This document shows, one piece after another, positions 30,003 to 61,280 of a stretch of 64,000 nucleotides of DNA. How positions within the stretch are numbered: position 1 is the first letter of the stretch; each line of letters starts with the position of its first letter. Under the pieces are notes generated by a model. The model had not been told where the DNA came from, made no database searches, and was given only the letters and a program-made list of their open reading frames with translations. Source of the DNA: a virus; the IMG/VR virus record IMGVR_UViG_3300043411_001114, positions 1-64,000 of that record; one strand, given 5' to 3'. Both the position numbers and the translations under genes were made by a program.

Positions 30003-30017
30003 CTGGAATTGGTACTG

Positions 30018-30026
30018 TGATAGTAT
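30018..30026 (+). promoter_or_regulatory. Extended -10 promoter for a leaderless endonuclease mRNA
   Basis: TGATAGTAT fits TGnTAnnnT. The ATG at 30035 follows after 8 bases, as in the other endonuclease gene at 3705, and no Shine-Dalgarno sequence is present. Confidence 0.5.
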
Positions 30027-30034
30027 CAATGTCC

Positions 30035-31426
30035 ATGAAGTGCAAACCGGGATGCACCTGCAAGCGCCACAACAGGGTGCTCACTGACGAGCATCGGGAA
30101 AACATCGCCAAGGCTAACGCGGCCCGCAGGGGAGAATCGCGCAAATGCCCTGACGGGTGCGCCTGCAACCGGCATAAGGCCTACTACCGGGGCGGCAGTA
30201 AAAAGGGGAGAACCTTCTCCGATCAGGCCAGGGCGAACATGACCGCCAGCGCCAGGAATCGTGCCTACACCCCAGAAGGCATCCAGTCCCTGTCCGACAG
30301 GATGAAGGAAAACCACCAAGACCCCGACTTCACGGCCAGAAGGGTTTCTGCCCTGAAAGATTACTGGGCCAACGTCGTGTCTCCGGAAGATTTGGCGCGA
30401 GGGGTGAAGCGATCCAGTAGGGCGGAAAAGATCATCGCCCCGTTCCTGGAAGGCATGGGGTACCACCACAACGAGGGTGTCGGTCAGCTAAGAATCGGCC
30501 GAAGGACACCGGACTTCATCGACTCCGAAAACAGAAGAGTCTTTGAGTATTTTGGCGTGTACTGGCACCCCGATCCTCAGGAAGCTCTTGACCTGGTTGA
30601 CTTCTATGCGAGCCGGGGCTGGTGGGCCACCATCCTGTGGGAGGACCGGGTGCTTAGGTGGATTGAAGACCACAAAGACCTGGTCGATGAAGAACGCTAC
30701 GAGTCGGCAAGACACTCTTTGTCCAATCTTCACAGGTATCACCCAGGTCCTCCGCCGAACCTCTCCCCGAGGGTGATTTACCAACACGAGTGGGACGACC
30801 CCCGGGTGCGGACAATAATTTCAAGCCAATCCAGATATGCAGAAAACAAAACCACCAACAGGGTTGGTGCCCGGCTTTGCGAAATTGACACGAATGTTTC
30901 TTCGACAGAAGCCGCTAGTTTCCTGGACGAAAACCACCTCCAGGGGAGAGCCGGGGGGTCGGTCAGGATTGGGTTGAGGCACGATTCAGAACTGATCGCC
31001 CTGATGTCGTTCGGCGTCCCCCGAATGCAGAAAAAGTCTGCTCCCGTCGAGTGGGAAATGATTCGATACGCGGTCAGGCTGGATCATGCCGTTCCCGGCG
31101 GGGCCTCACGGCTGTTCAAAGAGTTCGTCAGGACCACCAACCCCTCCAGCATTGTGAGCTATTCGGACAACGCGAAATCTTCGGGCAAGCTCTACGAGAC
31201 GCTGGGATTCTCTTTTTCCAACGAGACCGCACCGGACTATGTGTGGTGGGACGGCAAGATCGTCAAGAAAAGATACGAGTGCATGTCCTACAAACTGAAA
31301 CAAAAATACCCCAATCTGCCCGGCATCGACTCGATGAGCGAATCTCAGATCATGTCCGGCCTGGGGTACCGGAAGATTTCCGACCTCGGCAAGAAGGTGT
31401 GGGTCTGGAACAAGAACGACCTGTGA
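30035..31426 (+). CDS. Composite homing endonuclease: finger repeats, Vsr-like nuclease, GNAT-like C-terminus
   Basis: A protein of 463 residues. Residues ~1-95 hold two Cys/His units (CKPGCTCKRH and CPDGCACNRH), each followed by a NUMOD3-like segment (RGESRKC; GRTFSDQARANMT). Residues ~130-210 resemble a Vsr/PD-(D/E)xK nuclease (SRAEKIIAPFLEGMGY, RTPDFID, VFEYFGVYWHP). Residues ~280-430 look like a Mom/GNAT-type fold (LDENHLQGRAGGSVRIGL, ASRLFKEFVRT, YSDNAKSSGKLYETLGF). It separates the tube and tail-chaperone block and is more A/T-rich than its neighbours, so it is probably a mobile gene. ATG 30029 is an alternative start. Confidence 0.75.
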   Translation: MKCKPGCTCKRHNRVLTDEHRENIAKANAARRGESRKCPDGCACNRHKAYYRGGSKKGRTFSDQARANMTASARNRAYTPEGIQSLSDRMKENHQDPDFTARRVSALKDYWANVVSPEDLARGVKRSSRAEKIIAPFLEGMGYHHNEGVGQLRIGRRTPDFIDSENRRVFEYFGVYWHPDPQEALDLVDFYASRGWWATILWEDRVLRWIEDHKDLVDEERYESARHSLSNLHRYHPGPPPNLSPRVIYQHEWDDPRVRTIISSQSRYAENKTTNRVGARLCEIDTNVSSTEAASFLDENHLQGRAGGSVRIGLRHDSELIALMSFGVPRMQKKSAPVEWEMIRYAVRLDHAVPGGASRLFKEFVRTTNPSSIVSYSDNAKSSGKLYETLGFSFSNETAPDYVWWDGKIVKKRYECMSYKLKQKYPNLPGIDSMSESQIMSGLGYRKISDLGKKVWVWNKNDL

Positions 31427-57128: not shown

Positions 57129-57428
57129 GTGAAAATTTGGGTCATCAAAATGTTTGGCCGCAAAGTTCTGGAAATAGAATCCAGGGAGGAAGTCACCGTC
57201 GACGACGTGGTGCGCAGGATGGTGGCCGCCACCGTCGGGATCGTCGTGGACGACGAGTGCGACTGCGAAGAGGACTACCGGGGGATCATCGAGGGGTTGA
57301 TCCCCTGCGAGTCGTGCGGCGAGATGTTCCTCCCCGACGATGAGGAAGCGGTGGACGCCGAGTTCGCCAACCTCACCGAGAGACTGATCTGGGGTCCCTC
57401 CCCGGAGGAAGAACCGGAAGAGGAGTAG
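57129..57428 (+). CDS. Small acidic protein with CxxC
   Basis: A 99-residue protein from GTG with AGAGGAA upstream. It contains CDCEEDY and later IPCESCGEMFLPDDEE, possibly one zinc site, and is strongly acidic at the end. Its 3' end overlaps by 56 bases the 3' end of the antirepressor-like gene on the other strand. Function unknown. Confidence 0.55.
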   Translation: MKIWVIKMFGRKVLEIESREEVTVDDVVRRMVAATVGIVVDDECDCEEDYRGIIEGLIPCESCGEMFLPDDEEAVDAEFANLTERLIWGPSPEEEPEEE

Positions 57429-58293
57429 CGTCGTCGGTAATTACCGGCTCGCGCTTGGTGGTGAGCAGGACACGCAACTTGTGCAACCCCTTCATGGTCA
57501 CACGAACCTGCGGGGTGCCCAGATAGTAAACACCATCAGACCTATCGAAGTATCGTTCACCGATTTTTTCGGTCAGCCGACCGGCCTCAATTTGAGATTG
57601 ATAGGGTCGCCAGTGAGACCGAGACCCCCTGGTTCGATAAATCCATCCCTGCTGTCCCATGAATTTGAACAATCGGTTGGCACCGATTTTGATGCCATAG
57701 TCGTTGTGAAGAATCGCCGAAACATCTGCGACAGCAAATGTCCCCCTAGCGTCTGCTAGGGCGAGCCAGCTTTCCGCGACCGGCTCAATGAGCTTCACAT
57801 ACTCCTGAGTGTCCTGGTGGTTTCGCTTTTCGTCGTCCAGCGCGTCCTGGGTGGCAATCAGCGCCGAGGCCAGCGCATCGGCACGGCGGGCCAGAAGCTG
57901 GGTCTGCAGCGCCAACTCGCGGGCGTCGGACGGCTCGTCCGGGGTGTGGCGCTGCTGCAGTTCTTCGCGCATCCGCCGGAAGGCCTGGATCAACTGGACC
58001 TTGAAGTCGACCACGGCCTCGTTGTTGCGCATGAAGGTCAACAGCAGGCTGGCCTGGTACTCGTTGAGCACGGCGTAGGTCTCGGGACGCCCCGGACCTG
58101 CGGTTATTTTTGCGATCTCAAATCGCAAAACGCCAAACTCCTCGAATTTGGCCTGATGGGTGCGAACCAGGCGAAAAACAGAACGGTGATCGGAGTTGGT
58201 GCCCTGGGCGATCACCAGGGTCGTGGTGACGGGATCGCCGCCGTCAGCGGTTACCAGACCAACGGTGGTGTTGGTATGCTCAAGTTCTGGCAT
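57373..58293 (-). CDS. Antirepressor-like protein (Rha N-terminus, KilAC C-terminus)
   Basis: A 306-residue protein. Residues ~1-115 match the Rha pattern: TNSDHRSVFRLVRTHQAKFE, then RPETYAVLNEYQASLLLTFM and VDFKVQLIQAFRRMREEL. A helical linker leads to a KilAC-type domain (~155-280: DVSAILHNDYGIKIGANRLF, FMGQQGWIYRTRG). Such proteins bind DNA and often control lytic/lysogenic or host-gene states. The start ATG at 58293 is chosen over an upstream in-frame codon because the conserved part begins there. It is read after the helicase on the same strand; no integrase or repressor is in this window. Its target is unknown. Confidence 0.82.
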   Translation of the reverse strand: MPELEHTNTTVGLVTADGGDPVTTTLVIAQGTNSDHRSVFRLVRTHQAKFEEFGVLRFEIAKITAGPGRPETYAVLNEYQASLLLTFMRNNEAVVDFKVQLIQAFRRMREELQQRHTPDEPSDARELALQTQLLARRADALASALIATQDALDDEKRNHQDTQEYVKLIEPVAESWLALADARGTFAVADVSAILHNDYGIKIGANRLFKFMGQQGWIYRTRGSRSHWRPYQSQIEAGRLTEKIGERYFDRSDGVYYLGTPQVRVTMKGLHKLRVLLTTKREPVITDDATPLPVLPPGRDPRSVSR

Positions 58294-58319
58294 GAGGACT
58301 CCGATTCCTTTTGTCGGAC

Positions 58320-58347
58320 GACCCCCGTCCCTGAACAGGCGGGGGTC
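58320..58347. terminator. Hairpin between the helicase and antirepressor genes
   Basis: A perfect 8-bp stem GACCCCCG (58320-58327) with CGGGGGTC (58340-58347). On the plus strand it is followed by ATTTATTT; on the minus strand it lies just after the helicase stop but lacks a T tract. It may work as a partial terminator or processing site. Confidence 0.55.
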
Positions 58348-58349
58348 AT

Positions 58350-61280
58350 TTATTTGGCCTCCCCGAACAGCAGCCATTCGAGATTCTTGGCCTCATCCGG
58401 GGTCTTAGAAGAACTATAGCTCAATTCCTCGCTGGTCCCCTGTACTGCGGCGGCCAGCGCGCGGCGCTCGTTGCATATCTGCCATATCCGTTCCTCCACC
58501 GAGTCCTCGGTGATGAGAACGTAGGCGGTCAAACCGTCCAGGTGGGAGTCTGTGCGGTCGATGCGGGCATTGCGCTGGGCCAGGTCGTCGTAGGAGTAGG
58601 TGGGGTCGACGCTGATGACATACCGGGCCTCCTGCAGGTTCAAGCCGTAGGTTCCCGCATCGGAGGAGCAGAAGGCGGTGATGTCGGGATCGGCCTTGAA
58701 GCGATCCTGAGCGGCCTGGGACTCCGCTGCGGACTGTCCGGTGGCGTAGTGCAGAACGTGCGGCACCGTTAGATGTGGGGCCAGCGGGAGCAGTCCCAGT
58801 TCCGTCCAGTGGCAGAAGACCACCGCCTTGTCCTGAGCCTCCCGGACACCCTCCAGCATCCCGTTGAGGACCTCGATCTTCCCCGAGTGGGTGGCATCGA
58901 ACAGGTCGGGCCGTTGGGCGAGAATGTCGGCGGCGACCTCGCTCTTCGAGTTGAGCAGCGCCGCCGGGTTGATGCAGGCGATCCGGGCCGCCAGGTAGTG
59001 GTGGGCGAGACTCTCGCCCTTATCCCGGGCCTGACGGGCGCTGTCGAGGATCAGGCCGAGCAACTGCTCGGTGCCCGGAGTGGCCTGGACGTACATCGGG
59101 ATGGTCTCGATGCCCCGGAACTGCTCCTGCACCCCGGGGTCGGTCTTGCGGACAGCCATCGTCCAGTCGCCGACCCGGTGCCGTATCTCCTGCAGTTTGA
59201 CGAGGTTCCAGTCGTAGGTGACGAACCCGAAGGATCGACCGGTTCGGGTCTTCATCGGGACATTGCGAACCCGGTCGGCGTAGCGCTGAATAAAGTCGGT
59301 CTTGGTCGATAGCGGGTTGTGCCCCTCCTGGCCGTCGAGGGAGAAGACGTCCCGGTACCGCAGCGGGTTGCCTCCGACCACGGTGGCACTCATCGGCCAC
59401 ACAATGGCATGACAGGCCCTCACCATCCTGTCGAGCGCCTGGCGGGCCTTGTTGGGGGTCGAGTCGGTGATCAGCTTGGAAGCCTCGTCAAGCACCCACA
59501 AGACCCGCTTCCCGGCAATCAGGGTGATCAAGTCTTCCTCGTCGTGCCAGAGTTTCTCGTAGTTCATGACGTAGACCTGGTGACCGGCGGCGTACATCTT
59601 GCGGCGCTTGGCCTTGGTGCCGTCAGTGACCACCGCGTCCAGCCCGGCCGGGGCCTGGAAGGTGCGGCAGAGGTTGATTTTGAGTTTGGACAGCGTGCAG
59701 GCGATGACCAGGTCGACGTCGTCGTGATTGAACAACTCCAGGGCACCGGCCCCTGAGCAATGGCTATTGTGAGTGACATTATGTCCCCGAGTAACGTAAA
59801 GATTGTTCTGAGCGGCTACGGTGATGCACACCTGTTCCTCAGACATACCTTCATCGAAGACGTTGGAAATGATTTTGTTCGGAATCTGACGCTGCACGGG
59901 CGGACAGTAGGCTTGGGCTTTGCGTGATAGCCGGAACGGCATGACGTCAGGCGGAAATACGATGCTGACACGCCAAGATTGACGACCAGGAATACGATCA
60001 CCGTTTTTGTCGGTGTACTTGGTGATTCTTCCCGAGGAAATGGTGGCTCTGCCCCGCAGGCCACGAACAAGATCAGCCACCTGATCCCGAAGAGCCTCAC
60101 TGGTGGTGGAAAACTCCACTCCAGTCTTTCCTGAGTAGGCATGGCCATCGGTGTCCAGAAGTCCCTGGAGTAGGGCTAATCTCTCAGCAGCAGAAGATCG
60201 TAAATAGTTCTCGGGAACATGTTTCTCGTAAGAGAATTGTCCCCAAAGACCCATGTCCTTCAAAACACGCCTGATCGAAGCCGGAACCATGGCGACTGCA
60301 GTGTGTTCGGTTTCCGTCGCCGTCACACGATTCCATCCGAACTGATCAATAATTTCTTTATCGGTGTGAATACTGTCAGCTCGGAAACACCCATCTCCAA
60401 GAAGAACCCCGAGCATGTAGGGGGGTAGTGGCAAGGATTCTGGAAGCGGCGAAAAATGAACTGTCTCAAGCGCCGGAATCTGCCAGCGATGCTTTCCCCG
60501 TTCGGGCAGGTTGACCATGATTTCTTTGGTGGTGAGAGTTTTCCAAGGAGCCTCTTCGATACGCTCTTTTCTGGTCGGGTCACTGAGGGAAGGACCACGA
60601 CGTCGGGTGCTGGATTTTCGTACATTCCAGAGGTGATCTCCGTCGCATCTGACGAAAGTCTTGTCGTTGAACTCGACGCGATAAACAGAACGCACACCCT
60701 GAGGGTGTACTGCAATCACCGAAGTGGCCATGCCGTCTGAGCCAATAACCTGATCGCCGGGCCGCAAATCCCCCATGGTGCGCCATCCTGTCGGGGTGAG
60801 CACAGGCTCACTGACGGGTTCCGCCTTCCCGGACCCGGCCGCCCAATTCCAGAACCAGAACCTGTCGGTGTTTGTCTGACCGTTCCTGGCCCGCTCCAGC
60901 GCCCGGTTCATACTGAACGTCTGGAACGGCTTGAGGGTGTAGCCCTCGATGTCCAGCGGGGCGTTCCAGCGGGCCACGTCCTCCCGGACGGCCTGCGCCG
61001 AGGGTGTCCAGACGGGATGGTAGCCGTCCTTTTCGAGCGCCTCGATGAACTGGTCGGCCAGGTGCAGGCCGTTGAGGATGAGATACCGGCTCACCCAGTC
61101 CTTGTGCCGTTCCAGGAACAGCCCACGGCTGGTCTCGTCCAGCGGTTCGAACGACAGGTTGTCGGGATAGTCGGGATGCTGGTCGACCAGGATGATGCGC
61201 GATTCGGGGACACCGGAGTCGAGTAGGGCGATCACGTCCCTCTCGGTGGCATCGAGGGTCACGGTGTCCTGGTCGGTCAT
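58350..61280 (-). CDS. SNF2-like superfamily 2 helicase with intein in the P-loop
   Basis: A 976-residue precursor; 623 residues after splicing. The host protein has a Walker A motif split as AAGSGK-(intein)-SHCSGA, a DEAS box (VLWVLDEASKLI), SATVVGGN (motif III) and, C-terminally, CHWTEL, SSDAGTYGLNLQEARYVISV and QRNARIDRTDS (motifs V-VI). This is the layout of SNF2/DEAD-type DNA translocases. It probably acts in phage DNA replication, recombination or repair. It is on the minus strand, opposite to most genes here. The ATG is 6 bases from TAAAAT, so its mRNA may be leaderless. Confidence 0.88.
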   Translation of the reverse strand: MTDQDTVTLDATERDVIALLDSGVPESRIILVDQHPDYPDNLSFEPLDETSRGLFLERHKDWVSRYLILNGLHLADQFIEALEKDGYHPVWTPSAQAVREDVARWNAPLDIEGYTLKPFQTFSMNRALERARNGQTNTDRFWFWNWAAGSGKAEPVSEPVLTPTGWRTMGDLRPGDQVIGSDGMATSVIAVHPQGVRSVYRVEFNDKTFVRCDGDHLWNVRKSSTRRRGPSLSDPTRKERIEEAPWKTLTTKEIMVNLPERGKHRWQIPALETVHFSPLPESLPLPPYMLGVLLGDGCFRADSIHTDKEIIDQFGWNRVTATETEHTAVAMVPASIRRVLKDMGLWGQFSYEKHVPENYLRSSAAERLALLQGLLDTDGHAYSGKTGVEFSTTSEALRDQVADLVRGLRGRATISSGRITKYTDKNGDRIPGRQSWRVSIVFPPDVMPFRLSRKAQAYCPPVQRQIPNKIISNVFDEGMSEEQVCITVAAQNNLYVTRGHNVTHNSHCSGAGALELFNHDDVDLVIACTLSKLKINLCRTFQAPAGLDAVVTDGTKAKRRKMYAAGHQVYVMNYEKLWHDEEDLITLIAGKRVLWVLDEASKLITDSTPNKARQALDRMVRACHAIVWPMSATVVGGNPLRYRDVFSLDGQEGHNPLSTKTDFIQRYADRVRNVPMKTRTGRSFGFVTYDWNLVKLQEIRHRVGDWTMAVRKTDPGVQEQFRGIETIPMYVQATPGTEQLLGLILDSARQARDKGESLAHHYLAARIACINPAALLNSKSEVAADILAQRPDLFDATHSGKIEVLNGMLEGVREAQDKAVVFCHWTELGLLPLAPHLTVPHVLHYATGQSAAESQAAQDRFKADPDITAFCSSDAGTYGLNLQEARYVISVDPTYSYDDLAQRNARIDRTDSHLDGLTAYVLITEDSVEERIWQICNERRALAAAVQGTSEELSYSSSKTPDEAKNLEWLLFGEAK
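59766..60824 (-). mobile_element. Class 3 intein with LAGLIDADG endonuclease
   Basis: Residues 153-505 of the helicase precursor (353 residues). The first residue is Ala, not Cys or Ser. The class 3 triad is visible: Trp218 two residues after the block B His216 (GDHLW), Cys485 in block F (EEQVCITV) and Thr503 before the terminal His-Asn (NVTHN). Ser506 is the +1 residue. LGVLLGDGCF and LLQGLLDTDGH form a LAGLIDADG endonuclease. Class 3 inteins start splicing from the block F Cys, and the DnaB intein of mycobacteriophage Bethlehem is a known case. The insertion point, between Lys and Ser of the P-loop, blocks ATP binding until splicing. Confidence 0.9.

Follow-up and report, generated by a model that had tools for sequence, protein, structure and literature searches.

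A putative mobile class 3 intein in the Walker A codons of a helicase gene from a Bixzunavirus-related phage

A helicase gene whose ATP-binding loop is interrupted by an intein raises the question of whether the insertion serves as a control step for the helicase or rather spreads on its own account. Such a gene lies in the window analysed here, a stretch of 64,000 nucleotides comprising positions 1 to 64,000 of the IMG/VR virus record IMGVR_UViG_3300043411_001114. The earlier note on this DNA had described a class 3 intein in the P-loop and had proposed that its splicing could control helicase activity. In our reading, the insertion is very probably a full-length, mobile class 3 intein that occupies the Walker A codons in the helicase gene of a Bixzunavirus-related actinophage.

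The window comes from a virus contig of 112 kb, whose virion module resembles that of Bixzunavirus by PHROG matches and by a major capsid protein of 90.7% identity. The host of the phage is therefore probably an actinobacterium. The features of the locus are collected in Table 1. The positions 58350-61280 given before cover the whole host gene, while the DNA of the intein itself extends from 59766 to 60824. The helicase and the adjoining Rha/Ant-like antirepressor ORF share one strand and are likely co-transcribed.

Table 1. Features of the intein-containing helicase locus (window positions)
Feature	Position	Strand	Remarks
Intein-containing SNF2-like helicase precursor	58350..61280	-	976 aa ORF; spliced product 623 aa
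N-extein, host residues 1-152, ending in Walker A GSGK	60825..61280	-	
GSGK codons of Walker A, directly before the intein	60825..60836	-	G146, G148 and K149 (orthologue numbering) invariant
Class 3 intein with LAGLIDADG homing endonuclease domain, host residues 153-505	59766..60824	-	353 aa
Intein residue 1, Ala (host Ala153)	60822..60824	-	no N-terminal nucleophile
Block B His64 (B:10), Leu65, Trp66 (B:12)	60627..60635	-	
First LAGLIDADG motif PYMLGVLLGDG, intein 135-145	60390..60422	-	
Second LAGLIDADG motif RLALLQGLLDTDG, intein 215-227	60144..60182	-	
Block F Cys333 (F:4), proposed initiating nucleophile	59826..59828	-	in 61/61 relatives
Block G Thr351-His352-Asn353	59766..59774	-	in 61/61 relatives
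+1 Ser, second nucleophile and Walker A Ser	59763..59765	-	
C-extein with helicase motifs II-VI (VLDEAS, SATVVGG, QRNARIDR)	58350..59765	-	
Rha/Ant-like antirepressor ORF, overlapping the helicase stop	57373..58377	-	context only

By its helicase motifs and a SNF2-type profile match, the extein is an SNF2-like SF2 helicase. It matches Pfam Helicase_C above the cut-off and PHROG 62 ('DNA helicase') at 3e-77, and a profile of its orthologues matches the structures of Fft3, RapA and RAD54, with RAD54-like similarity across residues 145-596. All 14 orthologues compared keep GxGK and the DE of motif II unchanged. The proposed insertion between GSGK and S of the P-loop was borne out, as in silico removal of the intein rejoins Walker A as GSGK-S and improves the match to the DEAD-helicase profile from E=0.18 to 4e-5.

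Class 3 inteins are defined by Trp at B:12, Cys at F:4, Thr at G:5 and His at B:10, together with a position A:1 without a nucleophile (PMC3196547, PMC5050341). The intein begins with AEPVSEPVLTPTGW and ends with NVTHN, and its first residue is Ala instead of Ser, Thr or Cys. Each of the residues named in the earlier note is correct, although its 'Ala1' follows intein numbering and the others follow host numbering; converted throughout, host Ala153, Trp218, Cys485, Thr503 and Asn505 are intein A1, W66, C333, T351 and N353, followed by the +1 Ser. W66, C333 and T351 align to the equivalent residues in the inteins of Alice, Phrappuccino, Proteus phage 10 and IMG/VR relatives, and H64, H352, N353 and the +1 Ser complete the set of block B His, C-terminal His-Asn and +1 Ser/Thr. 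Relatives of the intein are encoded in 540 phage records; among 61 aligned relatives, H64, C333, T351, H352 and N353 occur in 61/61 and W66 in 60/61, one row of this alignment (L066) being a composite made of one intein's tail and a second intein's head. The intein is thus no chance feature, given these many records and the nearly invariant catalytic residues.

The AlphaFold2 model of the intein, a confident one (pLDDT 89.5), has a Hint fold like that of solved class 3 inteins, with a profile match at E=7e-34. In Foldseek searches, the whole model matched PI-SceI, a Hint plus LAGLIDADG protein, and its first Hint segment, over ~67 aligned columns, matched 6rix, 6riy and 6bs8 at 1.3-1.5 Å, with about 1.4 Å and 42% identity for 6rix/6riy. 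Both LAGLIDADG motifs are intact, as had been noted from the letters, with acidic residues in GDG (D144) and LDTDG (D226), and are modelled as helices. The Pfam LAGLIDADG_3 match reaches 28.7 bits against a cut-off of 22.5, and the acid Asp226 is present in 61/61 aligned relatives. These motifs mark the insertion as a putative LAGLIDADG homing endonuclease intein for which cutting of the intein-less site is predicted. Its GC3 is 0.535, compared with 0.85-0.89 in the flanking exteins, an A+T richness at third positions relative to the host gene that looks as if it were of outside origin.

The nearest relative is the intein carried by the helicase gp175 of Mycobacterium phage Alice (Bixzunavirus) and its relatives. 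This intein, known from Alice and eight more named phages, is 63% identical over all 353 residues, carries the class 3 residues and a LAGLIDADG domain, and occupies the same codon in the same helicase family, between GSGK and S. Outside the Alice group, the best phage match to the window intein reaches 37%. The two host helicases are only 57% identical, the Alice intein has a GC3 of 0.77 whereas the window intein is much richer in A+T, and the window phage represents a lineage apart from the Bixzunavirus carriers, its closest helicase relatives being intein-free. We take the 'HEL' intein of an earlier catalogue to be the same allele as that of Alice, Alice being a Bixzunavirus. Published in 2016 as a survey of inteins in mycobacteriophages, that catalogue assigns 2 inteins to 'HEL', in a helicase related to HepA and in subcluster C1 (PMC5050341). 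With the same codon in an orthologous helicase and sister inteins, the window intein is a diverged new member of the known class 3 P-loop allele, and elements of its kind have already been catalogued.

The distribution of the intein bears directly on the question of mobility. It is found in only 11/190 Bixzunavirus helicase records. The orthologue of JustHall is intein-free. Among nine carrier phages, the inteins differ at 0-1 of 1077 bases and the exteins at 0-31 of 1863. Shaqnato, which carries the intein, and Phox, which lacks it, are 2 of 1863 extein bases apart, whereas Alice and Shaqnato, both carriers, show 25 extein differences and 0 intein differences, with ~14 predicted at the same rate. 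This carrier pattern is the signature of homing or recent recombination in Bixzunavirus. Since the intein is present only sporadically among near-identical helicases, it is evidently dispensable. In IMG/VR, the P-loop is uninterrupted in 15/15 distinct orthologues, which were collected with C-extein queries and hence without bias regarding the intein, and which come partly from metagenomes and partly from cultured phages; two of the collected orthologues (L105 and L116) are identical in sequence. A search for a second carrier close to the window phage found none, and a scan of genome contigs with single-sequence patterns returned no relative, which is weak evidence of absence.

Phylogenetic trees of the two parts of the gene disagree. 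The extein tree places the window gene with an intein-free group (L102-L104), and a clade of window and carriers is rejected with a p-AU of about 1e-6, whereas in the intein tree the window and Alice inteins are sisters with 100% support. Measured on these separate trees, window and Alice are 0.63 changes per site apart in the intein and 0.91 in the extein. Sister inteins in exteins that refuse grouping, together with the sporadic presence, constitute a homing signature. Any transfer between the window and Alice lineages, in whichever direction, would be old because the two inteins are 37% diverged. For the split between window and Alice, an ancestral insertion followed by loss in many lineages retains a small probability. 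Co-conversion of flanking codons was considered as a mark of transfer from Alice-like phages and set aside, the base identity of the flanks to Alice being no higher than to empty relatives. GSGK is common to window and Alice, while most relatives have GAGK, and the intein-free JustHall also has GSGK. Within Bixzunavirus, the +2 base is C in 9/9 carriers and T in 3/4 of the empty genes examined, which is suggestive only.

By analogy to class 3 chemistry, splicing would start with an attack of Cys333, helped by His64 and Thr351, on the Lys152-Ala153 peptide bond, by which Cys333 takes over the N-extein. The acyl group would then move from Cys333 to the +1 Ser, cyclisation of Asn353, assisted by His352, would free the intein, and an O-N shift would join GSGK to S, yielding the 623-aa helicase with intact Walker A. 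In co-infections, the endonuclease would cut empty GxGK-S alleles and repair would copy the intein in. The conserved codons of the ATP site would be a target that is hard to mutate away and from which an intein is hard to lose imprecisely. For the window copy itself, we infer splicing, DNA cleavage and mobility.

A different role was suggested by the insertion point itself. Inside the ATP-binding loop, the intein could be kept as a post-translational switch that leaves the helicase ATP-dead until a signal, for instance redox state or metal, arrives. Such conditional splicing has a precedent in DnaBi1 of M. smegmatis, a class 3 P-loop intein in which H2O2 blocks splicing by forming a disulfide with the catalytic Cys (PMC6195587). 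It can reasonably be supposed that the precursor would lack normal ATP binding until splicing, and the DnaBi1 study assumes likewise, from RadA, that ATP binding needs splicing (PMC6195587). However, this is expected for any P-loop intein, and a need for splicing does not amount to regulation. Most orthologues by far lack the intein, and these include the near-identical helicases of sister phages. Moreover, insertion between GK and T or S is the commonest site among the relatives and recurs in many unrelated ATPases, as conservation of the homing target predicts without regulation. The second Cys of a DnaBi1-type switch is also lacking, since the Cys of M. chimaera DnaB1 that corresponds to Cys48, the redox partner in DnaBi1, aligns to Val47 in the window intein, and Alice has Val as well. 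Further cysteines exist as possible alternative partners, namely Cys60, four residues before His64, Cys146 and Cys307. Conditional splicing is a very improbable account. The control step proposed in the earlier note is not supported, the intein being sporadic, spread between near-identical helicases and devoid of the Cys48 partner. The intein acts more as a mobile parasite than as a switch.

Two further readings are both very improbable. A homing intein could have been domesticated as a timing device, with helicase activation depending on the state of infection through another cysteine pair, e.g. Cys60-Cys333. Alternatively, the intein could be degenerate, splicing slowly or not at all despite intact-looking motifs, with the loss tolerated and the helicase dispensable. 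The class 3 pseudogene intein Arth_1007 offers a precedent for such decay (PMC3196547), and the source is a contig record known by its sequence only. However, all defining residues are intact, among them the block B His and the block F Cys, both missing from the Arth_1007 pseudogene, the reading frame is open and the helicase motifs of the C-extein are conserved. Mobility of a full-length intein remains the preferred reading. In the alignment of 61 relatives, a Cys occurs at position 60 in 27 rows and at position 61 in 20 (host 212-213), 3-4 residues before the block B His; in class 3 inteins of phages, this residue may be a second Cys with redox activity close to the active site.

The window intein can be compared with further class 3 systems. 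The class 3 prototype, the DnaB intein of mycobacteriophage Bethlehem (PMC3196547), is alike in the block F Cys mechanism and WCT by residue identity; likened from its description, it differs in its host protein, DnaB. The mycobacterial DnaB inteins (M. smegmatis DnaBi1, 6bs8; M. chimaera DnaB1, 6rix/6riy) share WCT, the +1 Ser and a superposable first Hint segment, and DnaBi1 is likewise inserted in the P-loop of a helicase, but these are mini-inteins without an endonuclease whereas the window intein has a LAGLIDADG domain. The class 3 Snf2 intein of Deinococcus radiodurans, likened from description, also resides in an SNF2-type helicase (PMC3196547, PMC6195587), in a bacterial gene rather than a phage gene. 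Among the relatives, one (L072:3001-4140) has a Cys at position 1 in addition to the full Trp/Cys/Thr set, with a P-loop site between GK and T, and could use either nucleophile; in another (L071:3001-4005), the class 3 Trp is replaced by Phe but the set is otherwise complete. A metagenomic phage gene (L066:3001-4515) contains two class 3 inteins around a short extein stretch of PhoH-like appearance.

The window intein represents a diverged second lineage of a P-loop class 3 allele that was before known from mycobacteriophages. The nine carriers with near-identical inteins, among about 190 records of related phages growing in laboratory M. smegmatis, provide a ready system for watching class 3 homing, and the near-isogenic helicases of carriers and non-carriers allow a direct test of the cost or control exerted by a P-loop intein. 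The main value of the window intein is that it forms one end of this tractable homing system.

Other putative mobile elements were noticed in the same phage. A low-GC ORF in the tail module (30017-31426, plus strand; 0.56 against 0.63-0.67 in its neighbours) matches Hef-like/HNH homing endonucleases (phrog_559, phrog_3339) in its C-terminal part and would be a second, free-standing homing endonuclease. Beyond the window, the same record holds a DNA polymerase III alpha gene in two pieces (G000:C1 about 71180-75553; L121:8181-12554). The break lies just before the catalytic PDIDVDF motif, a region that is contiguous as FERFINPDRPDFPDIDVDF in phage I3, and the pieces are separated by an ORF of low GC (0.46) that contains helix-turn-helix and Phage_endo_I-like domains. 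The tail of the N piece, about 43 aa (RIELDSGEVLELNPGDSVQLSDGRVVVARDLKEGDDI), had no match in phages; it resembles the end of an intein N-half and is too short for a Hint domain. The split polymerase could reflect either a homing endonuclease that left the gene in pieces or a split intein in reduced form. Finally, a Class III aminotransferase-like gene (L121:102-1631), with about 32-35% identity in Bixzunavirus, lies beside a thymidylate kinase gene and perhaps serves nucleotide or DNA modification.
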